A stretch of 64,000 bases of DNA from Deltaproteobacteria bacterium. Lineage in GTDB: Bacteria > Bdellovibrionota > Bdellovibrionia > Bdellovibrionales > JAMPXM01. Below are positions 45,477-63,577 of this stretch, one piece after another. The number at the start of each line of letters is the position of its first letter. The first letter of the stretch is position 1. Location of the stretch: positions 338,650 through 402,649 of the forward strand of contig JAFLCB010000003.1 in assembly GCA_017302795.1 (NCBI GenBank). The letters run 5' to 3'. Position numbers and translations under genes: made by a program. Under the pieces are notes generated by a model. The model was not told the DNA's origin. It saw nothing but the letters and a program-made list of their open reading frames with translations, and searched no databases.

Positions 45477-45552
45477 GCTGGTTTAGCTCAATTGGTAGAG
45501 CAGCTGATTTGTAATCAGCAGGTTGCGGGTTCGAGTCCCATAACCAGCTCCA
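45477..45552 (+). tRNA. tRNA-Thr (anticodon TGT)
   Basis: A 76-nt gene. Acceptor arms GCTGGTT / AACCAGC, D-arm TAGCTCAATTGGTAGAGCA, anticodon stem CTGAT/ATCAG with loop TTTGTAA (anticodon TGT), T-loop GGTTCGAGTCC, and an encoded CCA. Confidence 0.97.
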
Positions 45553-45643
45553 TTTTAATCAAAGGTTCGCGACAGGTTTTTTTGACAATTCGTTCGGTGA
45601 TAGTTCCGCTGTTTTCCTAGTGTATTTGTAGAGCGTTTTGAGC

Positions 45644-45728
45644 GGAGAGGTACCCAAGTGGCCAACGGGGGCAGACTGTAAATCTGCTGGCTCCGCCTTC
45701 GCAGGTTCGAATCCTGCCCTCTCCACCA
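45644..45728 (+). tRNA. tRNA-Tyr (anticodon GTA)
   Basis: An 85-nt gene with a long variable arm (class II). Acceptor GGAGAGG / CCTCTCC, anticodon stem CAGA/TCTG with anticodon GTA, T-loop GGTTCGAATCC, and an encoded CCA. Confidence 0.97.
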
Positions 45729-45816
45729 CTTTTCTCACAGGCGCGTTTAGGTAGAAGCGATCTTTGATTGTACGAAGCTGTTGAAAAGACAGTCGAATTG
45801 ACGAGGTTTGGAACGG

Positions 45817-45893
45817 GCGGGAGTAGCTCAATTGGCTAGAGTATCAGCCTTCCAAGCTGAGGGTTGCGGGTTCGAGACCCGTCTCCCGCTCCA
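45817..45893 (+). tRNA. tRNA-Gly (anticodon TCC)
   Basis: A 77-nt gene. Acceptor GCGGGAG / CTCCCGC, anticodon stem CAGCC/GCTG with anticodon TCC, T-loop GGTTCGAGACC, and an encoded CCA. Confidence 0.97.
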
Positions 45894-45940
45894 ATTTTCC
45901 TCGTCGTGTTTAGTCTCTTCACCGATCTCTTAGTTTTCCT

Positions 45941-46015
45941 GCCCATGTGGCTCAGTGGTAGAGCACGCCCTTGGTAAGGGCGAGATCGGGGGTTCGATTC
46001 TCCCCATGGGCTCCA
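45941..46015 (+). tRNA. tRNA-Thr (anticodon GGT)
   Basis: A 75-nt gene. Acceptor GCCCATG / CATGGGC, anticodon stem GCCCT/AGGGC with anticodon GGT, T-loop GGTTCGATTCT, and an encoded CCA. The order Thr-Tyr-Gly-Thr is that of the thrU-tyrU-glyT-thrT cluster that precedes tufB in E. coli; here tuf is 16 kb away. Confidence 0.97.
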
Positions 46016-46255: not shown

Positions 46256-47731
46256 ATGTCTACGCTTTTCGCTCTTCCTCCAGCTGATATGGTGATTTTT
46301 GGCGGCATGGGTGACTTGTCGCTTAGAAAAATTCTGCCTGCCCTTTATTACCGCTTCACGGAGAAACAATTTAATCACGAAGGACGAATTTTCGTTCTGG
46401 CTAAGACGGAACTCGCTCAAGATGCGTTTCTCGCGCAGGTTCACGAGCATCTCCAGCTGCACGTGAAGAAAGATGATTTTAGCGAGAACAAATGGAGAGA
46501 TTTTTCCAAAACTCTTCGGCACGTTCGCGTAGATGCGAATGATCAAGCTACTTACGCGTCGTTTTCGAAACTTCTTTCAGATCAAGCGAGGCCCGTTCGA
46601 GTATTCTATTTAGCAACGCCGTCCTCCGCGTTCGGAGAGATCTGTCATCAGCTAAAAGTTAACGGCTTAATAACTTCGGAATCTCGTGTGGTCGTGGAAA
46701 AACCGCTGGGTTCCAACATGGCGACATTTCAAAGTCTTGACGAGTCTATCTTGGATTGTTTCCATGAAAATCAAATCTATCGAATTGACCACTACTTGGG
46801 AAAAGAAACTGTCCAAAACCTCATCGTCTTGCGATTTGCCAATAATATATTTGAACGTCTTTGGAACAGCGACAATATCGAACACGTTCAAATCACCGTC
46901 GCTGAAGAAATTGGTGTTGGAAATCGAGGCCGCTATTACGACGATTCGGGTGCACTGCGAGACATGGTTCAAAACCACTTGTTGCAGCTTCTCTGCTTGG
47001 TTGCCATGGAGGCTCCAAGTCACATTACGCCTGACCAAGTCCGAGATGAAAAACTCAAAGTCCTGAAGTCGTTGCGGCCGATCCTCGCGAATGACTGCCA
47101 ACAGCTGACGGTCAAGGGTCAGTATCGAAGCGGCATGGCCGGTCACACACGCATGAACAGCTACGTCGAAGACGTCGGAGTAGCACAAAGTCAGACCGAG
47201 ACTTACGTGGCGATAAAGGCTTTTGTCGATAACTGGCGTTGGTCGGGAGTTCCGTTTTATTTGCGCACTGGCAAGCGGATGCAAAAACGTTTTTCCGAAA
47301 TCGTTATCCAATTTCGAGCAGTACCGCTGAACATATTCCCTGGCACAACTAGCCCGCCAGAAACCAACAAGCTTATTATCCGCTTACAGCCGGATGAAAG
47401 TGTGAAGTTGCAAGTTGCGACGAAGACGCCTGGTCCGGGCGGCTACCGAATCCAGCCGGTTTTTTTAAATTTGAGTTTTTCCGAAGCATTTACCCACCGT
47501 TCACCAGACGCTTACGAACGTCTTTTGATGGACGTGGTGCGAGGCAATCCGACTTTGTTTATGCGCTCGGATGAAGTGAAGGCTTCATGGAGTTGGACAG
47601 AAAATATTTTAGAAGCTTGGAAGTCCACCAACCAACCCGTTTTGCCTTATGGCGCGGGCACTGTTGGACCAGCGGATGCGGCCGTTTTGCTAGGGAAAGA
47701 CGGCGCGAAATGGCATGAGGAATACTTGTGA
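46256..47731 (+). CDS. zwf: Glucose-6-phosphate 1-dehydrogenase
   Basis: A 491-residue enzyme oxidising glucose-6-phosphate to 6-phosphogluconolactone, the first step of the Entner-Doudoroff and pentose phosphate routes. The coenzyme motif reads FGGMGDLSLRKILPALY (Gly-Met where most have Ala-Ser) and the substrate-binding signature is YRIDHYLGKETVQNL. Late motifs WSGVPFYLRTGKRM and PDAYERLLMDVVRGN fit the family. ATG at 46256 has GGTGAG 6 nt upstream; ATG at 46235 is also possible. It is the first gene of the carbohydrate cluster; its stop overlaps the pgl start. Confidence 0.96.
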   Translation: MSTLFALPPADMVIFGGMGDLSLRKILPALYYRFTEKQFNHEGRIFVLAKTELAQDAFLAQVHEHLQLHVKKDDFSENKWRDFSKTLRHVRVDANDQATYASFSKLLSDQARPVRVFYLATPSSAFGEICHQLKVNGLITSESRVVVEKPLGSNMATFQSLDESILDCFHENQIYRIDHYLGKETVQNLIVLRFANNIFERLWNSDNIEHVQITVAEEIGVGNRGRYYDDSGALRDMVQNHLLQLLCLVAMEAPSHITPDQVRDEKLKVLKSLRPILANDCQQLTVKGQYRSGMAGHTRMNSYVEDVGVAQSQTETYVAIKAFVDNWRWSGVPFYLRTGKRMQKRFSEIVIQFRAVPLNIFPGTTSPPETNKLIIRLQPDESVKLQVATKTPGPGGYRIQPVFLNLSFSEAFTHRSPDAYERLLMDVVRGNPTLFMRSDEVKASWSWTENILEAWKSTNQPVLPYGAGTVGPADAAVLLGKDGAKWHEEYL

Positions 47732-48429
47732 AGGCTTCGACATTTAAGACTTTCGACAGTAAAGAGAGTTTGTTTAAGTGTCTCACAAACGATGTGACGG
47801 AAATCTTGACGGAGGCAATAAAGCAGCGCGATCGAGCGTCGTTTGCTGTGTCTGGAGGAAAGACGCCACAACCATTTTTTCAAGCATTAAGCGCTGCGAA
47901 GTTAAATTGGTCCAAGGTGTCTGTCACCTTGGCTGATGAAAGGTGGGTACCTACCGACCATGCAGACAGCAATGAAAAACTAGTTCGAGATAGTTTACGT
48001 GTTGAAGGTCTGCGACTCATTTCTTTGAAGAGCTCTGCCGCGGACCCCTATCTGGGATCCGTCGATGTGAGTCGGAGTTTAGCGACAATGTCTAAACCAT
48101 TTGATGTTGTTGTTTTAGGAATGGGTGACGATGGGCATACCGCTTCACTATTTCCTACTTCAAAGGATCTGAAGCTTGCGCTTTATCCTGAAAATGCGGA
48201 AACGTTGTGCGTTGGGCTTACGCCGCCGGCCTATGCTCCGCACCCAAGAATCACGCTCACTCTACCGGCCCTTTTGGATTCTAAAAAAATAATTGTCCTG
48301 ATCAACGGAGATAAGAAAAAAAGCGTTTATTTTAAAGCTTGTGAAGAAGGACCGGTGGAGGAAATGCCAATCCGGGCCATCCTACAACAGCAAAAGACTC
48401 CCGTGGAAGTCTATTGGACGGCGGAATGA
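47728..48429 (+). CDS. pgl: 6-phosphogluconolactonase (DevB type)
   Basis: A 233-residue lactonase related to glucosamine-6-phosphate isomerases. Motifs: [41 protein letters not shown], and [16 protein letters not shown] with the catalytic His. GTG start at 47728 overlaps the zwf stop and has GAGGA upstream. It hydrolyses the lactone made by Zwf. The stop overlaps the edd start (ATGA). Confidence 0.95.
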
Positions 48430-50243
48430 CGAACCAGAAGTTACTGACGATTACAAATCGAATTAAAGAACGAAGCCTGAAGACCCGCGCATTTTATCAA
48501 CAGCGCATGACTCTTCAAGAGAGCAAGAAGCCTCGTAGAATGCAGCTTTCTTGCGGCAACTTGGCTCATGGATTTGCGGCATGCGCGCCGATCGAAAAGA
48601 GCAAACTACGAACGACAGAAAAGCCCAATGTCGCCATTGTTTCTGCGTACAATGAGATGCTTTCAGCCCACAAACCCTACGAGAGTTTCCCTAAAATTAT
48701 TAAAGAAGAAGCTCTTTCCGTCGGCGCGATCGCGCAGTTTGCCGGCGGGGTACCGGCAATGTGTGACGGAGTCACGCAAGGCCAAGACGGAATGGATTTG
48801 TCGCTTTTCAGTCGCGACGTCATTGCGCAATCAACAGCGATCGCGCTTTCCCACAATATGTTTGATGCCGCACTTTTGCTTGGCATCTGCGATAAAATTG
48901 TTCCAGGAATGCTGATGGGGGCTTTATCGTTCGGACATTTGCCCGTGATTTTCGTGCCCGGTGGTCCGATGCCGTCAGGTCTTGCCAATAAAGAGAAGGC
49001 GAGAATTAGGCAGCTCTATGCAGAAGGTAAAGCGACGCGCGAACAATTGTTAGAGGCTGAAGCTCAATCCTACCACGGCGAAGGCACCTGCACATTTTAT
49101 GGAACTGCAAATACAAATCAAATGCTGGTCGAAATCATGGGGTTGCAACTGCCGGGGAGCTCATTCGTGCAGCCCCACTCTCCGCTGCGAGAAGCGCTGA
49201 CGCGAGAAGCGACGCGAAAAGCAATTCAATTGAGCAGTTTGGGAAATGAGTATCTGCCGCTTTGGAAAATCGTAGATGAACGGTCGATTGTGAATGCGAT
49301 TGTTGGGCTTTGCGCTTCGGGCGGTTCGACAAATCACACGATTCATCTTATCGCCATAGCGAAAGCAGCAGGCATACAAATTAATTGGAATGACTTTCAC
49401 GAAATCTCTGCGATGACGCCAATGTTGTGTCGCGTTTATCCGAACGGGGAAGCCGACATCAATCACTTCCACGCCGCTGGAGGAACAGGGTTTTTGATTC
49501 AGGAGTTGTTGCGATCTGGAATGCTTCACGATGAGGTGCACACAATCGCTGGCTTAGGATTGAAAAACTATACCCAGGAAGCCTTTTTGAATCTCAACAA
49601 AGTTCAGTGGAAGCCCGCGGCAGCGGAAAGTCATGACCTCAACGTATTGAGGCCAGTGGCCAGTCCATTTCAAGATCAAGGCGGACTACAATTGCTCGAG
49701 GGCAACATTGGACGCGCGATTATGAAAACCTCCGCGCTCAAAGATCAACATTTGGCTGTTGAAGCAGAGGCCCGAGTTTTTTCGGATCAAGATCAGTTTT
49801 TAGAGGCCTTTAAAAAAGGCAGTTTGAATTGCGACTTTGTCGCTGTCATTACGCATGAAGGACCGGGCGCATGCGGTATGCCCGAACTTCACAAGCTAAC
49901 GCCGGCCCTTGGCGTCCTACAGGACAAGGGATTTAAAGTGGCACTGGTGACCGATGGAAGAATGTCGGGTGCGTCCGGAAAAGTACCCGCGGCTATCCAT
50001 CTAACTCCGGAAGCGATAAAAGGTGGACTGATCGGCAAAATTAAAGATGGCGACGTCATCAGGATCGACGCTCGAGCTGGAACTTTGCAGGTCAAGTTAA
50101 GCGCTGCAGAGCTGGCGGAGCGTAAAGTGGTAAATCCAGATTTAAGTTATAAACATTTTGGTTCAGGACGTGAGCTTTTCTCGCAGCTACGGCATTGTGT
50201 TACCGCGGCCGAAGATGGGGCTTCTACCTTAGGCTTACAATAA
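48426..50243 (+). CDS. edd: Phosphogluconate dehydratase
   Basis: A 605-residue iron-sulfur dehydratase of the IlvD/Edd family producing 2-keto-3-deoxy-6-phosphogluconate. Motifs are [56 protein letters not shown] and [18 protein letters not shown]; the cysteines that hold the 4Fe-4S cluster are present. The ATG at 48426 overlaps the pgl stop and is chosen over an upstream in-frame codon. It is specific to the Entner-Doudoroff pathway. Confidence 0.96.
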
Positions 50244-50256
50244 AGGAATTTAGTGC

Positions 50257-50880
50257 ATGTTGGAAAAATTGTTGAAAATCAGCCCGGTTATTCCAGTTGT
50301 AACCATTAAGAAATTGGAAGATGCAGTTCCAATTGCCGAAGCCCTCTTAGAGGGGGGGATAAAAATTATCGAAATCACTTTAAGAACAGATGCGGGCCTC
50401 CCATCCATCGAGGAGGTGTCAAAACGCCTTTCCGATATGACAGTGGGGGCGGGAACAGTTAGCAATCCCGAGCAATTTAAACAGGCAAGTAACGCCGGAT
50501 CGAAATTCATTGTGAGCCCGGGGTTGACAGACCGCTTGGCCCAGTTCGCTCTTTCAGAAAAGACACCTTATCTGCCGGGAGTTGCAACGATTAGCGAAAT
50601 CATGAAAGCCCGCGACTATGGCTTTCACCATCTCAAGCTTTTTCCGGCATCTGTGGTTGGTGGTCCGGTCGCCATTAAGCAGTTTTCGTCACTGTTTTCG
50701 GACATTTATTTTTGCCCGACTGGAGGGATCAGTTTGGCAAACATGAAGGACTACCTCACGATTTCCAATGTCGTTTGCATCGGTGGATCATGGTTAACGC
50801 CTGAATCAGCCATTGAATCGAAAAATTGGAACGAAATTACGCGTTTGTCGCGACAGGCAGTGGCAGCGGCTTTCGCCTGA
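50257..50880 (+). CDS. eda: KDPG aldolase
   Basis: A 207-residue class I aldolase splitting KDPG into pyruvate and glyceraldehyde-3-phosphate. The catalytic Glu is in IIEITLRTDAGL and the Schiff-base Lys in HHLKLFPASVVGG; VGAGTVSNPEQ, VSPGL and FCPTGGIS complete the (beta/alpha)8 signature. AAAGGAA lies 8 nt before the ATG. It is 13 bp after edd, completing the pathway zwf-pgl-edd-eda. Confidence 0.97.
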   Translation: MLEKLLKISPVIPVVTIKKLEDAVPIAEALLEGGIKIIEITLRTDAGLPSIEEVSKRLSDMTVGAGTVSNPEQFKQASNAGSKFIVSPGLTDRLAQFALSEKTPYLPGVATISEIMKARDYGFHHLKLFPASVVGGPVAIKQFSSLFSDIYFCPTGGISLANMKDYLTISNVVCIGGSWLTPESAIESKNWNEITRLSRQAVAAAFA

Positions 50881-50970: not shown

Positions 50971-53214
50971 TTGAAGCCATTCGATCGCCTATCATTTTGG
51001 CTACGGAGAAATCTGTTTCCCGCATGGGTTGCATTTGCCGTCCTATCCGTCATCTTTACTTTTTCGCACTCTGCATTCGCCGAAGTTAGAATTCAGCTTT
51101 GGCACAGTCAGATGTATGCGCATCGTAAGGTGCTGGCCGATCTGGGGCGCGAGTTTGAAGCGGCCAATCCCGGGGTCAAAGTCGACATTCTCTATCGAGA
51201 GACAGAAGAGCTTCGGTCGGCCTATCAAAGTGCCGTTATGGGCGGAAGTGGACCAGATCTCATTTACGGTCCCAGTGATCAAGTCGGTCCAATGTCGACG
51301 ATGGGAATCATTGCACCACTTGAAAAAATATTCTCGCCCGAAGAACTTGCTGAGTTTCATCAGCTCGCTTTGATCAATTACCGCGACCATCTCTATATGA
51401 TTGGCGATCGCATCGGAAATTTCTTGATGCTGATTTACAACAAAAAGTTGATGAAGGAGCCGCCGAAAACCGTTGAAGAGCTTACTGCAATCGCCAAAAA
51501 ACTGACGATTGATACCGATGGTGACGGTCGCACGGACCAATTCGGGCTCGCATTTAATTTCACTGAGCCTTATTTTTTCGTTCCTTGGATCAGCGGATTT
51601 GGCGAATCTTTCCTGAGCGCAGATGGACAGCCGAATCTGGCGACCAAAGCAACCGTCGATGCGTTCACGCTGATTCGCGATTGGAAAACAAAAGATCGTA
51701 TCATTCCTAGTGAGTGTGATTACGAGATGGCAAATTCGCTCTTTAAGCAGGGGCGCTCGGCGATGGTCATCAATGGCGATTGGTCGTGGGGCGACTATTT
51801 AGAGGCGAAAATTGATTTTGGCATTGCGCCTCTGCCGCAGGTCAAAGCCACTGGACGTTGGCCAACGCCGCTTGTGGGAACGACCGGCTATTCCTTAAAT
51901 CCGAATCTTGCCGATGACCGCAGGGAAACAGCGATTCGTTTTTTAAGATTCATGCTGTCTTCGCACGCCCAAGAGAAATTTACCCAGCAGGTTTCAACGT
52001 TTCCGTCGCTTCTTCGCCTTCAGGCTTCTGATGCAGTTAAAAGTAATCCGATTTTGCGCGATGCCGTCCCGATTATGGCGCGTGGTAAGCAGATGTCAGT
52101 CGCGCCCGAACTTCGGGCCGTTTGGGATAGTCTTCGGCGCGAGTACCAAAGCGTCCTCGGCGGCGTCTCAGAACCAGAAGCGGCCTCTCGTCGTGCGCAG
52201 TCCGATTCACTCGCGCAAATTCAGCGAATGAACGAGACTCTTCTACCAGATGGAACGCGCTGGATTGTTTTGGCGTTACTCATAGGCGTCCTTGGCTATC
52301 TTATTGTTCAATCGTTGAAAGGCATAAAGGCGATTCGTTCGGCGCGAGCGGGAAGCTTGAAGTTTGCCTACCTTATGACCTTGCCAGCCGTAATCGCTCT
52401 TTTCTTGGTTGTCGTCTATCCATTCGTTTTTAATATCCTACTTTCGTTTTCGAACTTTTCACTTATGACATTCCGCGATTGGAAGATCGTCGGGATGCAA
52501 CACTACATCAGCGCGGTATCGGATTGGTCGTTCTATGGCCTCTTACTGAAGACTCTGATTTGGACCTTTACCAATGTGTTCATGCACATGGTGCTTGGCG
52601 TGGGTTTGGCATTGCTGATTGATCAAACGTTGCCCGCAAAGCCACTTTGGCGAACGCTGCTGATTATTCCCTGGGCCGTGCCTCAATATATTACCGCACT
52701 CACTTGGCGAGGTCTGTTCAATCGAGAATATGGTCCGATCAATCAATTCTTAGCGGATTTTTTAAGTTTACCGCCTTTGGATTGGTTGTCGGATCCTTTG
52801 CTGGCTTTCACGGCCTGCTTTATAACGAATGTTTGGCTCGGGTTTCCGTTTATGATGGTGGTGGCGCTAGGTGGTCTGCAGACGATCCCGCACGACCTCC
52901 ATGAGGCCGCTCGCGTTGATGGCGTTTCGGCCTATCGACGATTCTGGTTGATCACATGGCCGCTGCTGCTTCCGGTCCTGAAACCAGCGGCTGTCCTTGG
53001 CTGTATTTGGACCTTCAATTCTCTGGGAGTCATTTGGCTTGTCAGCAACGGCGGCGAGCCAGCTGATCAAACTCACATTTTGGTGACCTACATTTACCGC
53101 GCTGCCTTCAATCTCTACCGCTATGGCCACGCAGCTGCTCTTTCAGTTCTGACATTCTTGCTGCTATTTCTTCTTGCGCGAGTGATGACAAAAAAGGAAG
53201 AGGCGATCAAATGA
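50971..53214 (+). CDS. Maltose/oligosaccharide ABC transporter: solute-binding protein fused to MalF-type permease
   Basis: A 747-residue fusion. Residues 1-38 form a signal/membrane segment. Residues 39-420 are a MalE-like binding domain (VRIQLWHSQMYAHRKVLADL, SGPDLIYGPSDQVGPM, SAMVINGDWSWGDY, LNPNLADDRRETAIRFLRFM). A helix follows at about 428-446, then a MalF-like permease (about 460-747) with ABC permease segments and the EAA loop HEAARVDGVSAYRRFWLITW (Glu near 644). Binding protein and permease are normally separate; here the binding domain would be tethered outside the membrane, one per permease subunit. TTG start with GGAGAGGGG about 10 nt upstream. The stop overlaps malG (ATGA). The substrate is inferred from neighbours to be maltodextrin. 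Confidence 0.9.
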   Translation: MKPFDRLSFWLRRNLFPAWVAFAVLSVIFTFSHSAFAEVRIQLWHSQMYAHRKVLADLGREFEAANPGVKVDILYRETEELRSAYQSAVMGGSGPDLIYGPSDQVGPMSTMGIIAPLEKIFSPEELAEFHQLALINYRDHLYMIGDRIGNFLMLIYNKKLMKEPPKTVEELTAIAKKLTIDTDGDGRTDQFGLAFNFTEPYFFVPWISGFGESFLSADGQPNLATKATVDAFTLIRDWKTKDRIIPSECDYEMANSLFKQGRSAMVINGDWSWGDYLEAKIDFGIAPLPQVKATGRWPTPLVGTTGYSLNPNLADDRRETAIRFLRFMLSSHAQEKFTQQVSTFPSLLRLQASDAVKSNPILRDAVPIMARGKQMSVAPELRAVWDSLRREYQSVLGGVSEPEAASRRAQSDSLAQIQRMNETLLPDGTRWIVLALLIGVLGYLIVQSLKGIKAIRSARAGSLKFAYLMTLPAVIALFLVVVYPFVFNILLSFSNFSLMTFRDWKIVGMQHYISAVSDWSFYGLLLKTLIWTFTNVFMHMVLGVGLALLIDQTLPAKPLWRTLLIIPWAVPQYITALTWRGLFNREYGPINQFLADFLSLPPLDWLSDPLLAFTACFITNVWLGFPFMMVVALGGLQTIPHDLHEAARVDGVSAYRRFWLITWPLLLPVLKPAAVLGCIWTFNSLGVIWLVSNGGEPADQTHILVTYIYRAAFNLYRYGHAAALSVLTFLLLFLLARVMTKKEEAIK

Positions 53215-54033: not shown

Positions 54034-55041
54034 ATGTCAAGTATTCGCCTCGAGAACGTAAGTAAATCCTTTGGCGCGACCACGGTCCTAAGGCCGCTCA
54101 ATTTGGAAATTCAATCAGGTGAATTTCTTGTTTTGCTGGGACCATCTGGCTGCGGAAAGTCGACTTTGTTGCGTTTGATTGCCGGCCTCGAGGCTCCTGA
54201 TTCCGGTCGCGTTTTCATCAACGATCGCGACGTGACGGATAAAGATCCGTCGGCGCGCGATCTTGCCATGGTTTTTCAAAGCTATGCTCTTTACCCACAC
54301 CTGACGGTCGGTGAAAACCTAGGGTTCGCGCTAAAGAACCGAGGCGATTCGCCTGCGAAGATTCAGGCTAAAGTAAAAGAGGTCGGCGACCTTTTGGATC
54401 TTTCAAATCTCCTGGATCGAAAGCCAAAAGCGCTTTCTGGTGGACAACGTCAGCGAGTCGCTTTGGGTCGTGCTCTGACTCGAGAAACGCCAGTGATTCT
54501 TTTTGACGAACCTCTATCCAATTTAGACGCCCATTTGCGAACCCAGATGCGCGTAAAAATTAAAGCGCTCCACGAGCGATTGAAGAACACGATGGTTTAC
54601 GTTACTCACGATCAGGTTGAAGCGACGACGATGGGTGATCGCATTGCTGTATTGAACCGTGGGCTGATTGAGCAACTGGACACACCTAAAAATATCTATC
54701 AAAGCCCTGCCAGTGAATTCATCGCACGGTTCATCGGCACACCCGAGACCTGTTTTTTTCTCTCGAAGATCAATTCACGGCTTGGTTACTCGGAAAAAGA
54801 CCAGCTCGCAATTCGGCCGGAGCATATCACTGTCGGCAATGGCGAGTTCCAAGGAAAAGTTCTTCTTCTTGAGAATCTAGGAGCGCAAACCTTGATTCAC
54901 ATTGAGAGTGCATTCGGTGATGTTCGGGCGTTGAAGCAGGAGACGGGAAGTCTTAAGGTTGGCGAACCTATTCAATTTGAAATCAACCGCAGCAAACTGA
55001 TGCGGTTTGACGAGCTCCACAGGGAGGTATCGAATGTTTAA
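54034..55041 (+). CDS. MalK/MsmK/UgpC-type ABC transporter ATPase
   Basis: A 335-residue ATPase: Walker A GPSGCGKST, Q-loop VFQSYALYPHLTVGENL, signature LSGGQRQRVALGRAL, Walker B VILFDEPLSNLD, and the H-loop His in VTHDQVEATTMGD. A C-terminal TOBE-like regulatory domain (about 240-335) is shorter than in E. coli MalK. It energises import by the fusion protein and MalG. The amylase start lies within its last codons. Confidence 0.94.
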   Translation: MSSIRLENVSKSFGATTVLRPLNLEIQSGEFLVLLGPSGCGKSTLLRLIAGLEAPDSGRVFINDRDVTDKDPSARDLAMVFQSYALYPHLTVGENLGFALKNRGDSPAKIQAKVKEVGDLLDLSNLLDRKPKALSGGQRQRVALGRALTRETPVILFDEPLSNLDAHLRTQMRVKIKALHERLKNTMVYVTHDQVEATTMGDRIAVLNRGLIEQLDTPKNIYQSPASEFIARFIGTPETCFFLSKINSRLGYSEKDQLAIRPEHITVGNGEFQGKVLLLENLGAQTLIHIESAFGDVRALKQETGSLKVGEPIQFEINRSKLMRFDELHREVSNV

Positions 55042-56506
55042 AGTCCCAATGCTATTTTTTTTGAGCGCCCTTTTGCCGCATCCAGCGTCGGCTGATGAAG
55101 GCGCAACACATTTGTCGGCGACGATCGGTCCGCGCACTGCTTTCGTACAACTTTTTGAATGGCCGTGGGACGATGTTGCCCGTGAGTGCGAAACTGTTTT
55201 AGGTCCCGGTGGATTTTCGGCGGTTCAAGTTTCGCCACCGCAAGAACACCTCGATTGGCCCGGCTCCCCATGGTGGGCGCGTTACCAGCCCATCAGTTAT
55301 AAGTTGGAGTCGCGCTCGGGCGATGCGAAGCAATTCGCAGATATGGTCAATCGCTGCAAAAAAGTGGGGGTCGACGTCTATGCAGATGCCGTGATCAATC
55401 ACATGGCGGGAATGTCGTCGGGATCTGGTAGCGCAGGTTCCGCCTTTCATCATAAATCGTATCCGGGACTTTATAGCGCCAACGACTTTCACAGCTGTGG
55501 CCGAAACGGGAACGATGACATCTTGAACTTTCAAGATCCCTGGGAAGTGCAAAATTGTGAGCTCTTGAATCTTGCCGATTTAAAAACTGGTACTTTGGAG
55601 GTGCAAGATCGCATCAGCGAGTACCTCAATCGACTTCTGAGACTTGGCGTTTCGGGCCTTCGCATAGATGCTGCGAAGCACATTCCTGCGAATGATTTGA
55701 AGGCCGTATACCAGCGCCTAAAAAAACCGGCCTATATTTATCATGAACTGATCTTGGGTTATCAAGAGCCGATTCCCTACTCGGACTATCTAGCGCTTGG
55801 CGATGTATCGGACTATCCCTATCCTTTCATCGTTTCCGAAGCGTTCTATCGGCAAGACTTTACTCGCTTGCTTGGTCTGGGGCACGGGACAATCCCGACA
55901 ACCGAAGCTGTGGTCTTTCTGACCAATCATGATATTGAACGAGAAAAGCGGCCCTACCTTTTGTCGCGCCATCAGAACAGTGAACTTTACCGTCTTGCTA
56001 ATACATTTATGCTCGCGTGGCCTTACGGATATCCGCAGCTCTATTCGGGTTACAAATTTCAAAGCTTTGATGATGGACCACCGTTGGATGCGAACAAGCG
56101 CACATTGCCAATCCTAAAACCAAATGGTGATTGTGCGGCACCGTGGACATGTGAGCATCGCGAGCCAGCGGTTTTACGAATGGTGGATTTTCGCAATCGA
56201 ACGAGTCATCGTTTTTTTGCAAGCCACCTTTGGACCAACGGTAAGGATCAAATCGCATTCGGGCGCGGCGATGCTGGATTTGTTGTGATTAATGCGTCGC
56301 CTGATCAAACCTTAAATCGAAAATTATACCACGGACTTCGCGACGGTTCATATTGCAACATTTTGGCTGCAGATTACGATGCACAAGCAGGAACTTGTGC
56401 GGTGCCGACGGTTGTTTCTCAAGGGCAAGTTCAACTGCAGATTCCGCCGCTCTCGGCCTTTGTGCTCCTTTCGAGAGATCTTGGTGAGAAAGGGAAAAAC
56501 CGGTGA
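55034..56506 (+). CDS. Exported alpha-amylase of the animal type (GH13)
   Basis: A 490-residue glycoside hydrolase with a signal peptide (VPMLFFLSALLPHPASA). The sequence follows animal/Pseudoalteromonas alpha-amylases closely in recognisable stretches: GGFSAVQVSPPQEH, WWARYQPISYKLESRSGD, FADMVNRCKKVGVDVYADAV and INHMAG. Catalytic residues are Asp212 in GLRIDAAKH, Glu238 in YHELI and Asp300 in LTNHDIER. It would cleave starch or glycogen outside the cytoplasm and feed the adjacent importer. GGGAGG lies 6 nt before the ATG. It overlaps malK by 8 bp and the ROK kinase start by 4 bp. The origin may be horizontal, since this type is rare in bacteria. Confidence 0.92.
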   Translation: MFKVPMLFFLSALLPHPASADEGATHLSATIGPRTAFVQLFEWPWDDVARECETVLGPGGFSAVQVSPPQEHLDWPGSPWWARYQPISYKLESRSGDAKQFADMVNRCKKVGVDVYADAVINHMAGMSSGSGSAGSAFHHKSYPGLYSANDFHSCGRNGNDDILNFQDPWEVQNCELLNLADLKTGTLEVQDRISEYLNRLLRLGVSGLRIDAAKHIPANDLKAVYQRLKKPAYIYHELILGYQEPIPYSDYLALGDVSDYPYPFIVSEAFYRQDFTRLLGLGHGTIPTTEAVVFLTNHDIEREKRPYLLSRHQNSELYRLANTFMLAWPYGYPQLYSGYKFQSFDDGPPLDANKRTLPILKPNGDCAAPWTCEHREPAVLRMVDFRNRTSHRFFASHLWTNGKDQIAFGRGDAGFVVINASPDQTLNRKLYHGLRDGSYCNILAADYDAQAGTCAVPTVVSQGQVQLQIPPLSAFVLLSRDLGEKGKNR

Positions 56507-57489
56507 GTAAGCGGGCCACTAGGTACACGATTGGACTTGATCTCGGCGGAACAAAGTTGGCCGCAGCATTGGTCAACCACCGTGGAGAGATCGTGGATAG
56601 CACGAAGGTACCGGTGGGCTTTCGTGACTCCGAGACGTCAGCCATTGCTCAGAGACGGCTTGTTAGTCTTATGGCCGAAATCTGCGTTGATTTTCGTCGA
56701 CGATATCCCTCGGAAGCAAAACGCCTCAAAGGCATAGGACTCGCCAGCGCCGGGCCGCTAAATGTTGATGACGGTGAGCTAATTAACCCCGTCAACTTTC
56801 CGAAGTGGAAGACGGTGCCGATCCGAAAGATGCTGGAGGCAGAGCTCCGCCGAAATGATATGCCATTCAAGGTCGCCTTTCAGAATGATGCGATCGCTTC
56901 TGCGCTAGCCGAGGGCTGGGTTGGCGGCGCCAAAAATATGTCGTCCTACGCTGTGGTCACAGTCGGTACGGGCATTGGCACCGGAGTTATTTTTAATGGT
57001 CGCCCCTGTCAAAGTAGGGGAATGGGTTCAGAATTCGGGCACCTGATTTTTGACGGGACAAAGCTTGGCGCTGAGTCTAGGAAACATCTAAGTATCGAAG
57101 GGATTGCGTCCGGTACGGCGCTTTTGCGCCGGGCCCGCGCCGATGGCTTTTCGGGCTATTCAGTTGAGGAGCTAGTTGAGCGGATTCAATCCGGCGAGAC
57201 AAAGTGGCTTCCTCTGTTTGATGACATGGCCCGAGCTTTGTCTGTTCTCTGTTATTCACTTTCGATCGGTTTTAACCTGGAGGGAATTTTATTTTCAGGT
57301 GGGTTATTGAAGGTGCGAGAACTGTATCTAGCTAAGACCAAAGATTACTATCGTCAGCTTATCACGGAGTTTAATCCTCGGTTCGAGTGTCGCTTGCAGC
57401 CTGCAAAAACAAGGCAGGCGGCCGGTGTGATTGGCGCCGCCTATTTGCCGTTACTCGCGACAACTCAGCCGAAACAGAAGAAGAGATAA
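56503..57489 (+). CDS. ROK-family kinase, probable glucokinase
   Basis: A 328-residue sugar kinase. ATP-binding DLGGTKLAAALV, catalytic FQNDAIASALAEGWVGGA, VTVGTGIGTGVIFNG and GSEFGHLIF identify ROK. The ROK zinc motif (CxCGxxGCxE) is lost: the region reads GAESRKHLSIEGIASG. GTG start at 56503 overlaps the amylase stop. In this cluster it most likely phosphorylates glucose released by MalQ and GlgX to feed Zwf. Another hexose substrate is possible. Confidence 0.88.
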   Translation: MSKRATRYTIGLDLGGTKLAAALVNHRGEIVDSTKVPVGFRDSETSAIAQRRLVSLMAEICVDFRRRYPSEAKRLKGIGLASAGPLNVDDGELINPVNFPKWKTVPIRKMLEAELRRNDMPFKVAFQNDAIASALAEGWVGGAKNMSSYAVVTVGTGIGTGVIFNGRPCQSRGMGSEFGHLIFDGTKLGAESRKHLSIEGIASGTALLRRARADGFSGYSVEELVERIQSGETKWLPLFDDMARALSVLCYSLSIGFNLEGILFSGGLLKVRELYLAKTKDYYRQLITEFNPRFECRLQPAKTRQAAGVIGAAYLPLLATTQPKQKKR

Positions 57490-57490
57490 A

Positions 57491-59488
57491 ATGAATTTCA
57501 ATCCAACAAAGCTTCGCGCAACCGCTCGATTTTTAGGACTTCAGGCGTCTTATCTCAACCCTGTCTTTGGCGACACCAAAGCAGATTGCTCGGTTTTGCA
57601 TCAGATGATCGAACAGCTAGCCGAGCGCACGATTTCGACGGATCAAGATCTCGATCGGCTGCGAGAAGATTTAAAGGACGATCGCTGGGCGCATGGTCTG
57701 CCTCCCTCAATCGTTGCATGGGGAGGCGAATCGCAGCTTGTTCCGGTGTTTTCCTCAAACTCGGATCTCGCAAAACCAGGCGTTACTTTGGAACTCATTG
57801 ACGACGAGTCGGGAGATCCGGTTTCTGCAGAAAATATAAAATGGAAATGTACGATGGTGCGCTCGCTGCCAAAAGGAAAAGTTTGGCAGCTAAAGTTCAA
57901 ATTAGATCTCTCAAAATTGAACAAGAGTCTTGGAGCATATTTTCAGTTGAAACTGAAAGCGGGTGAGCGTGAATTTCGTTCGCTCGTTATTTGCCCTCCT
58001 TCCTGTTTAAAGTCGCCTGAAGAACTTAAAAACTCCGAGGGGCCGTTTTTACCTCTGCATGCGGTTCGCACGGGGGACGAAATCGGCATGGGATCTTTAC
58101 GAGAGTTGCGCAAAATCGCAACCGAGCTTCGCGAAAACGGCGCTAAGTGGGTTTCGTTGTTTCCACTTTTGCCAGGAAACTTTGATCACCCGGATTGCGA
58201 TCCCAGCCCTTACTCGGCGCTCAGCCGACTTTTTTGGAACGAGATTTACATCGATATTGAGTCTGCGATGAAGCGCCACAATTCTTCGAAGGCGCACTCC
58301 ATATTTAATTCCGATCAGTTTCAAACCGAAGCGAAACGTCTGCGCGAGGACGATTTCGCTGATTACCACGCCGTCTATCAATTGAAGAATCAAGTCCTGG
58401 ATGTTCTCGCTGAAGAGTTCTTTGCGACAAAACAAGATGCGTCAAACGACTACCAAGACTTTTTGCGCTCAACCCCCGAGATAACTGGTTACGCGGCTTT
58501 TCGCGCCGGTCGTGAATCCGCCTATGAGACCGCCGATCGATATCATCGCTTCGTTCAATTCGAAATGCAGCGACAGCTTCGCGATCTCGCTACGAGTTTG
58601 CCGCTTAAGCTCTACATGGATTTTCCGATTGGAGTGAATGACGGTGGTTTCGATCAAAGTGCCTTTCCAGAAATTTTCTTCCGGAAAGTTTCTGTAGGGG
58701 CTCCACCCGAGCTCGTCTTCAGAAATGGACAGGATTGGGGTTTCTCACCGTTTCATCCCAAACGGCTTCGGCAAACGGGCTATCAGTATTTTCGAAAAAC
58801 GCTTCGGCATCATTTGCAATTCGCAAAAATTTTGCGGCTTGATCACGTGATGGGGCTTTACCGAGTGTTCGCGATTCCAAAAGGGCAGGGCGCGAAGAGT
58901 GGCGTTTATTTGCGTTACCAACCAGAGGACATGCTAGCCATTGCCGTGCTCGAAGCCTCGCGAAGTGGAGCTGACTTCATCGGCGAGAACCTCGGTACTG
59001 TTCCAGACCAGGTGAATCGCATCATGAAGGAACGAGGGATCAAAGGAATGTGGGTGCTTGAAATGGAAACTCACAAATCGCCCACGTCTGCCTTTAGCAG
59101 TGTGACTCAGGATCAGCTTTTCTGTTTGAATACCCACGACATGCCGATGCTGACCGCCTACTTGAATTGCGAGGACTTACCGGAAGTCTCGAGATTGGGC
59201 ATAGTAGATCCAGCGACAGCATCCAGTCTTGCCGAAAGTCGAAAAGCCGACCTCCGGCCTTGGATTGAAAAATATGGCAGTCCCGAGCGCGGAGAGTTTG
59301 CAAATGCTGTGATCGACGATCTTCGGGCGGTGAAACCATTATACTTTGTCATCAACCCTGAGGACTTGGTTGGCGAAACGCGCCCTATGAATATTCCAGG
59401 TACTTACAAAGAGGTACCGAACTGGCGAAGGAAGTTTTCGTTTCAAGGGGTTAAATTTAAGAGTTCGGGCGGAAAGACAATTCGCTAG
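57491..59488 (+). CDS. malQ: 4-alpha-glucanotransferase (amylomaltase, GH77)
   Basis: A 665-residue enzyme that transfers glucans between maltodextrins and releases glucose. An N-terminal beta domain (about 60-190) precedes the GH77 barrel. Conserved stretches are SPYSALSRLFWNEIYIDIE, YMDFPIGVNDGGFDQSA, GAPPELVFRNGQDWGFSPF, the nucleophile region ILRLDHVMGLYRVF, the acid/base GENLGTVPDQV, and LNTHDMPML. ATG at 57491 is chosen, directly after the ROK kinase stop. The length and N-terminal domain match E. coli-type MalQ. Confidence 0.93.
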   Translation: MNFNPTKLRATARFLGLQASYLNPVFGDTKADCSVLHQMIEQLAERTISTDQDLDRLREDLKDDRWAHGLPPSIVAWGGESQLVPVFSSNSDLAKPGVTLELIDDESGDPVSAENIKWKCTMVRSLPKGKVWQLKFKLDLSKLNKSLGAYFQLKLKAGEREFRSLVICPPSCLKSPEELKNSEGPFLPLHAVRTGDEIGMGSLRELRKIATELRENGAKWVSLFPLLPGNFDHPDCDPSPYSALSRLFWNEIYIDIESAMKRHNSSKAHSIFNSDQFQTEAKRLREDDFADYHAVYQLKNQVLDVLAEEFFATKQDASNDYQDFLRSTPEITGYAAFRAGRESAYETADRYHRFVQFEMQRQLRDLATSLPLKLYMDFPIGVNDGGFDQSAFPEIFFRKVSVGAPPELVFRNGQDWGFSPFHPKRLRQTGYQYFRKTLRHHLQFAKILRLDHVMGLYRVFAIPKGQGAKSGVYLRYQPEDMLAIAVLEASRSGADFIGENLGTVPDQVNRIMKERGIKGMWVLEMETHKSPTSAFSSVTQDQLFCLNTHDMPMLTAYLNCEDLPEVSRLGIVDPATASSLAESRKADLRPWIEKYGSPERGEFANAVIDDLRAVKPLYFVINPEDLVGETRPMNIPGTYKEVPNWRRKFSFQGVKFKSSGGKTIR

Positions 59489-59533: not shown

Positions 59534-61792
59534 ATGTTTTCTTCTTTGATTGCGGGCGGTTGTTTGGCGCTGGGAGCGTGTCTGACGAACACCCACATCG
59601 AGTTTACTGTTGCGAGCGAAAATGCGACTCAAATGGAAGTTTGTCTTTTTTCGCGACCAATGGGTGCGCAGCCGGAAGTTTGTCACCCATTAACCCGCAA
59701 CCAGACTTTGTATTGGTTTGCGAAAGTGCCGAAACCGAGTTTCGCCCCTGTTTATTACGCCTATCGCGCATGGGGGCCTAACTGGCCGTATAGCAAAAGC
59801 TGGAAGCCAGGAGACACAGCTGGCTTTTTAGCTGATGTCGATCGGAATGGTAATCGTTTTAATCCGAACAAGCTCTTGCTCGATCCCTACGCGCTAGAAG
59901 TCAGTCACGGCTTCGACCGCGTGCACGAAATAGATCATTTCAATTCAGGTCCACTTTATCGCTCGATCGATACAGGTCCCTTGGTGCCCAAAGGAATTGT
60001 TTCTGAAGCGCTTCCTCATCGCCGGAACGATATTATTCCGGACGGGACAAAGCCGTCGCATTCAATTCGCACGGACGTGGTCTATGAAGTGCATGTGCGC
60101 GGCTTCACGCACGACGACCACAGCGTACCAGCGCAGTACCGAGCAACCTATAAAGGGGCAGCGCTCAAGGCAAAGTATCTTAAGTCTTTAGGGGTAACAG
60201 CCGTCGAGTTTCTGCCAGTTCATGCCAAGTCCTCGCCTCAAGGGTTGCCTAATTATTGGGGTTACATGACGCTCAGTTATTTTGCCCCTGAACCAACTTA
60301 TGCGTTTGATCGTTCTCCTGGTGGACCAACCCGCGAATTCCGTGAAATGGTGCAGGCTTTCCACGCTGAAGGAATCAAGGTTTTCATCGATGTCGTTTAC
60401 AATCACACAGCAGAAGGCGGTGTAGATGTGCGCGATGCGAACGTGAGTTCGATTTGGTCTTTTCGGGGCCTCGATAACCGCATGTACTACGAAACGGCGC
60501 CGGACCCACGTTACTTTATGGACAACACTGGAATCGGTCACAATTTTGCGACCTTTCGCGAGGTACCTCGAGAACTGATTTTAGAATCTCTCAAATATTG
60601 GAAAGAGGTACTAGGGGTCGACGGGTTTAGGTTCGACTTAGCTGCCGTTCTTGGGAACAATCCTCGATCCACTTATTTCTATTTTGATGCTGATGACCCG
60701 GGTGGGCTTTTGCAAAGAATCGAGCGCGAGCTTCCTGCGAGGCCGGCACAGGGCGGATTTGGAGCTGACCTTCTCGCAGAGCCATGGGCTATCGGCCAGG
60801 GAACCTATCAGCAGGGACGATTTCCTAAAGGCTGGGCCGAATGGAATGGCGGAGCGTTTCGAGATCCAGTTCGCGCGTTTTTCAATCAGCGCGGTGTTGA
60901 ATCCGTGCCCATCGGCCGGGTGGCCAACGCGGTTTCCGGATCGGAAACCTTGTTCCGCGGAAATGGAAGGAAGCCCTTTCATTCAGTCAACTTCATTACG
61001 GCCCACGATGGTTTCACTTTGCGTGATCTGTTCACCTATAATTCGAAGCGCAATGGTCAACCCTATCCTTGGGGTCCCTCAGACGGTGGTTCGGATTCTA
61101 ATCGCTCTTGGGATCAGGGCGGGGATCCAGTAGCGCAAAAACAGATGGCTAGAACTGCAATGCTATTGCTATTCACTTCCGCGGGCACTCCGATGCTCCT
61201 CGGTGGTGACGAGCTTTATCGTACTGCGAAAGGCAATAACAACCCCTGGAATCTGGATACTGAAGTTAACCACCTTCCGTGGCCAAACCTTCAATCTCAC
61301 GCGCCCTATTTCGATTACGTTCAACACTTGATCAACTTCCGCCACCGCCACCCAGAGTTTGCGCCGGCTGAATTTTTCTTGGGAGTCGATCAAGACGGAA
61401 ATGGACTAAAAGACATTACCTGGTTTGATCGCGACGGTCGAGAAATGGCAAATTCAGTCTTTGCGGAAGACGGCCCCTTTCTCTCTTGGCGAATCGATTC
61501 GGTCGAGGGTCGGAAAAGATTAAAAAAAGCGCGCCCACGAGCGACCGTCAAATCTGTACAAGGCGCTTCGCGATCGGTCCTCGTTGCCATCAATGCCGGC
61601 TTTCATTCGATTGATTTTAAACTTCCAGCAACCGCCCCTGGGTATTCTTGGTTTCGTGTGGCGGATTCGGCTAGCTGGATGGAGCCGCTAGCTAACCATC
61701 ATCCGGCGGGGCAAGAAGTGCAGTTAGCAACCAATTACGTGGTGAATCCGCGCAGTGGGATTTTGCTAATTGAACGCCAAATTTCCAAGTAA
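59534..61792 (+). CDS. glgX: Glycogen debranching enzyme / isoamylase (GlgX-TreX type, GH13)
   Basis: A 752-residue enzyme hydrolysing alpha-1,6 branches. An N-terminal CBM48-like domain (about 10-120: FTVASENATQMEVCLFSRP) precedes the GH13 barrel with VYEVHVRGFTHDDHS, VFIDVVYNHTAEGG, GVDGFRFDLAAVLG (nucleophile Asp), LLAEPWAIGQGTY (acid/base Glu), NFITAHDGFTLRDLFTYNSK and MLLGGDELYRTAKGNNN. The opening GGCLALGACL looks like a lipobox, but it aligns with the PLGA start of cytoplasmic isoamylases and no basic residues precede it, so secretion is doubtful. It is the last gene of the carbohydrate cluster. Confidence 0.93.
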   Translation: MFSSLIAGGCLALGACLTNTHIEFTVASENATQMEVCLFSRPMGAQPEVCHPLTRNQTLYWFAKVPKPSFAPVYYAYRAWGPNWPYSKSWKPGDTAGFLADVDRNGNRFNPNKLLLDPYALEVSHGFDRVHEIDHFNSGPLYRSIDTGPLVPKGIVSEALPHRRNDIIPDGTKPSHSIRTDVVYEVHVRGFTHDDHSVPAQYRATYKGAALKAKYLKSLGVTAVEFLPVHAKSSPQGLPNYWGYMTLSYFAPEPTYAFDRSPGGPTREFREMVQAFHAEGIKVFIDVVYNHTAEGGVDVRDANVSSIWSFRGLDNRMYYETAPDPRYFMDNTGIGHNFATFREVPRELILESLKYWKEVLGVDGFRFDLAAVLGNNPRSTYFYFDADDPGGLLQRIERELPARPAQGGFGADLLAEPWAIGQGTYQQGRFPKGWAEWNGGAFRDPVRAFFNQRGVESVPIGRVANAVSGSETLFRGNGRKPFHSVNFITAHDGFTLRDLFTYNSKRNGQPYPWGPSDGGSDSNRSWDQGGDPVAQKQMARTAMLLLFTSAGTPMLLGGDELYRTAKGNNNPWNLDTEVNHLPWPNLQSHAPYFDYVQHLINFRHRHPEFAPAEFFLGVDQDGNGLKDITWFDRDGREMANSVFAEDGPFLSWRIDSVEGRKRLKKARPRATVKSVQGASRSVLVAINAGFHSIDFKLPATAPGYSWFRVADSASWMEPLANHHPAGQEVQLATNYVVNPRSGILLIERQISK

Positions 61793-62152: not shown

Positions 62153-63343
62153 ATGTCTAAGGAGAAGTTTGACCGGAGCAAACCCCACGTCAACATCGGC
62201 ACCATCGGTCACGTCGACCACGGTAAAACATCGCTGACAGCGGCTATCACAAAAGTACTAGCTGAAACAGGCGGAGCAACCTTCCTCGCTTACGATCAAA
62301 TCGACAAAGCTCCGGAAGAAAAAGCACGCGGTATCACGATCTCGACTTCGCACGTTGAATACCAAACTGCGAATCGTCACTACGCACACGTCGACTGCCC
62401 AGGTCACGCGGATTACGTAAAGAACATGATCACTGGCGCAGCTCAAATGGACGGCGCGATTCTCGTTGTTTCTGCAGCTGACGGTCCGATGCCACAAACT
62501 CGTGAGCACATCCTCCTTGCACGTCAGGTTGGCGTTCCTGCGATGGTTGTCTTCATGAACAAAGTTGACATGGTTGACGATAAAGATCTTCTCGAGCTCG
62601 TCGAAGTCGAAATTCGCGAACTTCTTTCGAAGTACGAATTCCCTGGCGACGAAATTCCAATCGTACAAGGTTCGGCACTTTGCGCTCTCGAAAACAAGAG
62701 CCCAGAAATCGGACGTGAAGCGATCTTGAAACTGATGGCTGAAGTCGATCGTTACATCCCACAACCAGAGCGCGCGATCGATAAGCCGTTCTTGATGCCT
62801 GTGGAAGACGTTTTCTCGATCTCTGGTCGCGGTACTGTCGTTACAGGTCGTGTTGAGCGCGGTATCGTAAAGGTTAACGACGAAATCGAAATCGTTGGTC
62901 TCGCACCGACGCAAAAGACTGTCGTTACAGGTATCGAAATGTTCCGCAAACTTCTTGATGAAGGTCGCGCTGGAGACAACTGCGGTTGCCTCCTCCGCGG
63001 TACGAAGAAAGAAGAAGTTGAGCGCGGACAAGTGCTCGCTAAACCAGGCTCGATCAAGCCACACAAGAAATTCAAAGCTGAAGCCTACATCCTCACAAAA
63101 GAGGAAGGCGGACGTCACACTCCTTTCTTCAACGGCTACCGTCCACAGTTCTACTTCCGTACAACTGACGTGACTGGTGTCGTTACTTTGAAAGAAGGAA
63201 CTGAGATGGTCATGCCAGGCGATCGCGTTGAAATGCAAGTAGAGCTCATCGCGCCAATCGCGATGGAAAAAGAGCTCCGCTTCGCTATTCGCGAAGGTGG
63301 CCGTACAGTTGGTGCCGGCGTTGTTGTCGACATCAGCGAGTAG
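62153..63343 (+). CDS. tuf: Elongation factor Tu
   Basis: A 396-residue translation GTPase delivering aminoacyl-tRNA to the ribosome. G1 GHVDHGKT, switch region [14 protein letters not shown]3 [14 protein letters not shown]4 MNKVDM, and domains 2 and 3 complete to VDISE. AGGAGG precedes the ATG. Strong codon bias fits high expression. It is followed by tRNA-Trp and secE, a classic order; the upstream tRNA genes usually next to tuf lie 16 kb to the left. Confidence 0.98.
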
Positions 63344-63358
63344 TATTCAAATTCGCTG

Positions 63359-63385
63359 ATCGCCTCGAGGCGATTGGCGTTTTGT
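63359..63385 (+). terminator. Possible terminator or attenuating hairpin after tuf
   Basis: ATCGCCT-CG-AGGCGAT followed by TGGCGTTTTG, 16 bp after the tuf stop codon. The palindrome is perfect but the loop is short and the T-run brief, so readthrough into tRNA-Trp and secE is possible. Confidence 0.45.
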
Positions 63386-63501
63386 ACTAAGAAGGTCGAG
63401 TCGAAATGGGTGGGAGCCCATCTCATATAGACTCGGCCTTTCTTGATTGAGATTGATTTAGTCAGACGCAAAAAATTTATCGTTCGATCGACAGTTTAGG
63501 T

Positions 63502-63577
63502 AGGGCAGTAGCTCAATTGGTAGAGTTACGGACTCCAAATCCGTCGGTTGGGGGTTCGAGTCCCTCCTGCCCTGCCA
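63502..63577 (+). tRNA. tRNA-Trp (anticodon CCA)
   Basis: A 76-nt gene. Acceptor AGGGCAG / CTGCCCT, anticodon stem CGGAC/ATCCG with loop TCCAA (anticodon CCA), T-loop GGTTCGAGTCC, and an encoded CCA. Confidence 0.97.

Follow-up and report, generated by a model that had tools for sequence, protein, structure and literature searches.

The MalE of Escherichia coli is a free protein, separate from MalF, whose P2 loop is large. A system in which the two are joined has reportedly been studied in Bdellovibrio bacteriovorus, where its activities are said to be comparable to those of the E. coli system. Licht et al. (2019, Res Microbiol 170:1-12) describe such a maltose/maltodextrin ABC transporter, in which MalF carries one fused MalE domain, and a review states that MalF-fused MalE is transport-competent. 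PDB entry 6FFL, titled in Foldseek "Maltose/maltodextrin-binding domain MalE from Bdellovibrio bacteriovorus bound to maltotriose", belongs to this type, its chain occurring letter for letter within the 733-aa fused MalEF of one of the relatives considered here (L006). A literature search on MalEF in Bdellovibrio returned nothing beyond papers citing Licht et al. 2019 or unrelated work. Outside the maltose family, two papers (PMC8025302, PMC11065425) describe the GlnPQ/OpuA type of type I importer, in which one or more receptor domains are covalently joined to the transmembrane subunit. MalEF shares with it the SBD-TMD fusion, but GlnPQ and OpuA serve other substrates and use other receptor families, and each of their transporters has at least two receptor domains, as against the single one expected of a MalEF/MalG heterodimer.

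Here we describe a locus of this kind in a relative of the predatory Bdellovibrio, in which the receptor of a maltose importer and one half of its channel form a single protein. The window, by which we mean the whole 64,000-nucleotide stretch of DNA that was analysed, encodes what is very probably the ortholog of B. bacteriovorus MalEF, acting as the receptor-permease subunit of a type I (CUT1) MalEF-MalG-MalK2 importer for maltose and linear maltodextrins. The fusion is real and the protein is a further example of the known B. bacteriovorus type; the proposal in the initial annotation that the maltose family holds no well-described case is wrong, given Licht et al. 2019 and the 6FFL structure from B. 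bacteriovorus. The features of the locus are collected in the table.

Table. Features of the malEF locus and its surroundings in window coordinates, with the evidence for each.
Feature	Coordinates	Strand	Evidence
Entner-Doudoroff genes upstream of malEF	47728..50880	+	edd/eda NCBIfam; lactonase read from sequence
edd	48414..50243	+	NCBIfam
eda	50257..50880	+	NCBIfam
malEF, fused maltodextrin-binding domain and MalF-type permease	50971..53214	+	open frame, Pfam, phmmer, homologs, model
malEF N-terminal signal sequence, residues 1-38	50971..51084	+	hydrophobic 15-33; putative cleavage
MalE-type solute-binding domain, residues 39-422	51085..52236	+	53% identical to PDB 6FFL
malEF linker, residues 423-463: extra transmembrane helix and short basic cytoplasmic loop	52237..52359	+	hydropathy, homologs, model
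MalF-type six-helix permease with EAA loop, residues 464-747	52360..53211	+	Pfam, NCBIfam, phmmer, hydropathy, model
malG, second permease, 272 aa	53211..54029	+	Pfam, NCBIfam; 4-base overlap with malEF stop
malK, ABC ATPase with TOBE_2 domain	54034..55041	+	Pfam, NCBIfam; Walker A GPSGCGKST, signature LSGGQRQR (read from sequence)
alpha-amylase family protein	55007..56506	+	Pfam
ROK-family protein, probable glucokinase	56503..57489	+	Pfam
4-alpha-glucanotransferase, GH77/MalQ	57431..59488	+	Pfam
isoamylase/GlgX-like debranching enzyme	59534..61792	+	Pfam

The malEF gene is one open frame of 747 aa that begins with a TTG codon, just behind a purine-rich stretch resembling a ribosome site (ggagagggg), and its translation contains no stop or frameshift between the MalE and MalF parts. 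Both SBP_bac_8 (residues 60-362, E 3e-37) and BPD_transp_1 (residues 554-736, E 6e-13) were found by Pfam in this uninterrupted frame, so that the fusion called in the initial annotation is borne out. The sequence also supports the interpretation offered there, a MalE-MalF fusion whose receptor is tethered 1:1, and the domain borders given (39-420 and 460-747) were right, although the extra transmembrane helix between them (approximately 429-458) went unmentioned. In phmmer comparisons against the PDB, residues 38-422 match the complete MalE domain 6FFL (E 2.6e-140) and residues 521-741 match residues 277-507 of E. coli MalF, with 6FFL being the best match of MalEF by structure (target TM-score 0.96, 53% identity) as well as by sequence. 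The hallmarks of a CUT1 system are present, namely EAA loops in both permeases (that of MalEF, read from the sequence at about 645-665, is HEAARVDGVSAYRRFWLITWPLL) and a MalK-type ATPase with a regulatory TOBE_2 domain. The NCBIfam MalE and MalF equivalogs match the two halves below their curated cut-offs (NF007011, 141.6 versus 291 bits; NF008232, 161.3 versus 392 bits), and the halves thus appear to be relatives of E. coli MalE and MalF rather than equivalogs as these models define them. The predicted signal sequence ends in SAFA/E, a signal-peptidase-I-like site at which it would be cleaved, and it has no lipobox.

Compared with B. bacteriovorus and other Bdellovibrio-type MalEF proteins, the window protein is approximately 55-56% identical over its whole length in the same continuous frame, with the same domain order, the same linker with a transmembrane helix and the same gene order malEF-malG-malK. 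It differs in having more residues ahead of the hydrophobic stretch of its signal sequence, and a Bdellovibrio-type locus has a glycosidase upstream where the window has Entner-Doudoroff genes. The E. coli maltose transporter (MalFGK2-E, PDB 2R6G) is homologous in its binding protein, its permease core, the EAA loop and the ATPase, but the receptor of the window protein is attached and the loop equivalent to P2 is, in the predicted structure, only about 27 residues long.

This structure, an AlphaFold model for which 45 fused homologs were used, is confident (mean pLDDT 88.3, pTM 0.83) and places in order an N-terminal helix (3-32), the receptor, the linker helix (429-458) and the permease core, with helices at 464-492, 519-552, 557-582 (broken), 609-637, 654-683 and 718-746, most of the modelled helices agreeing with a hydropathy scan. 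It is between the first two of these permease helices that the short loop lies, leaving no periplasmic loop of P2 size. With the C-terminus and the EAA loop in the cytoplasm, helix 429-458 must cross the membrane from outside to inside, which would put the receptor between the signal helix and the linker helix, where E. coli MalF has its first periplasmic loop.

From this arrangement a transport cycle may be proposed. The signal sequence would deliver the MalE domain to the periplasm, where it would stay tethered through its C-terminus to the outside-to-inside helix, which a short cytoplasmic loop connects to the six helices of the MalF core. The single receptor of each complex would then capture sugar, close and dock on MalEF/MalG, and ATP binding by MalK2 would open it to release the sugar; this follows the E. 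coli cycle, except that no pool of free receptors would take part. That a fixed receptor alters the mechanism, as the initial annotation holds, is a hypothesis. The imported maltodextrin would probably be processed by MalQ, related enzymes and glucokinase, and enter the route encoded by the neighbouring Entner-Doudoroff genes.

The closest relative (63-65% identity) also has the two domains in one continuous frame. Among 40 relatives searched, one same-genus genome and five from a single other genus were found to have the intact fusion, and no malEF match was found in three further same-genus genomes (G002-G004), making the system patchy within the genus. A scan of named genomes with binding-domain patterns, from which the best 80 of 122 confirmed loci were kept, found both domains in one frame in 64, two neighbouring frames in 15 and a binding protein alone in one; since the scan was pattern-based and limited to these best 80, the 64:15 ratio of fused to split loci is not a census. 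Many family members share this architecture, an outcome that the initial annotation had itself named as refuting its claim. The fused loci carry the labels Bdellovibrionota, Planctomycetota, Cloacimonadota, Fidelibacterota (Marinimicrobia), Calditrichota and Ignavibacteriota/Bacteroidota/Chlorobiota, and the fusion thus appears to occur in at least six bacterial phyla, with single phylum labels not to be over-read as most of these genomes are metagenome-assembled. The split loci (L065, L067, L069, L075, L085, L094, L099 and L107-L114) are nested in or beside fused lineages, and their malE and malF genes often abut or overlap.

Between the last receptor helix (QIxxMNE) and the permease, the fused members have a collinear stretch that includes a hydrophobic segment; this stretch is mostly 39-43 residues long, and about 53 in Cloacimonadota. 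In the split relatives, by contrast, the binding protein stops at or near MNE, the permease starts at the first core helix and the hydrophobic segment is absent. Split homologs of the Ignavibacteriota/Bacteroidota type (L065, L107-L114) and from Cetobacterium (L117) belong to the same protein families and lie in adjacent genes, but they are two genes with no linker transmembrane helix, and many of their binding proteins are lipoprotein-like. The extra linker helix is common to all fused members and absent from split relatives. Of the fused loci, 63 had an N-terminus that could be read; a simple motif rule found a lipobox-like cysteine after the signal in 42 of these, and in none of the 12 loci from Bdellovibrionota. 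A receptor with both a lipobox and a linker transmembrane helix would be anchored at both ends. Most of the fused loci outside Bdellovibrionota (within L043-L106) have a lipobox-like N-terminus together with the linker transmembrane helix.

An origin of the fusion in the assembly or sequencing, joining separate malE and malF genes, is next to inconceivable. The 15 loci with adjacent separate genes, some overlapping by a few bases, could be cited in its favour, yet they are a minority of the best 80 of 122, while the continuous frame with a near-constant linker recurs in the fused majority, across many independent assemblies and in Bdellovibrio-type genomes; no frameshift would create the transmembrane helix in the linker, and this independent recurrence rules the artefact out. 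It is also very improbable that MalEF is made as a fusion and cut after translation, freeing MalE as a periplasmic receptor. A proteolytic site in the linker would be compatible with the sequence, but the linker transmembrane helix and linker length are conserved across phyla, the model has a confident helix after the receptor-linker junction, and most members outside Bdellovibrionota add a lipobox that is predicted to hold the receptor at the membrane as well.

As regards the substrate, ligands differ among CUT1 binding proteins and the equivalog matches fall below their cut-offs, both of which would suit another oligosaccharide; set against this are the 53% identity of the MalE domain to the maltotriose-bound 6FFL and the amylase, MalQ, GlgX-like and ROK kinase genes that adjoin malEF-malG-malK, and such a substrate seems very improbable. 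Maltose and linear maltodextrins are the most likely substrates. The genome has one LamB-type maltoporin homolog, on another contig, and no other strong SBP_bac_8 match, and together with the gene neighbourhood this supports the prediction that maltodextrin uptake feeds the Entner-Doudoroff route. A second, free maltodextrin-binding protein was considered and dropped, the SBP_bac_8 search of the genome having given only two weak matches in 359-aa frames (43 and 38 bits versus 132).

In an unrooted tree the fused or split label needs two changes. With Cetobacterium (split, 37-39% identical) and Pantoea plasmid systems as outgroups it needs three, and the other fused lineages branch before a mixed Ignavibacteriota-type clade. 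Rooting with the permeases of three relatives (L008-L010) was dropped, since hardly any corresponding binding protein was found next to these. One fusion with later splitting may be the simplest reading of the tree, a history that the long outgroup branches and a quick tree search with some weak deep branches leave as a lead. On balance we lean slightly towards an old MalEF, found in at least six phyla, with a single origin that included the linker helix; its receptor would be doubly anchored in most lineages outside Bdellovibrionota, and the fusion would have been split again in some Ignavibacteriota-type lineages. If so, the family would offer a natural series for asking what benefit a tethered receptor brings, its fused, doubly anchored and re-split members allowing free, lipid-anchored and fused receptors to be compared within one family. 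What is added to the known MalEF type is modest: its breadth of distribution, the linker helix held in common and the prediction of double anchoring. The single protein of the window is ordinary, and it is the spread of a one-to-one receptor-permease fusion outside model organisms that may be noteworthy.

Promoter and terminator scans of the malEF region gave results at chance level. In the Entner-Doudoroff stretch upstream, edd is preceded by a probable 6-phosphogluconolactonase gene, read from the sequence, and a zwf-like frame from 45971 lies upstream alongside these genes. Just upstream of the latter are four tRNA genes (Thr, Tyr, Gly, Thr) at 45477-46015; the 586-aa zwf-like frame begins inside the last of them, so its true start must be later. 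An EF-Tu gene followed by tRNA-Trp lies at 62153-63577.
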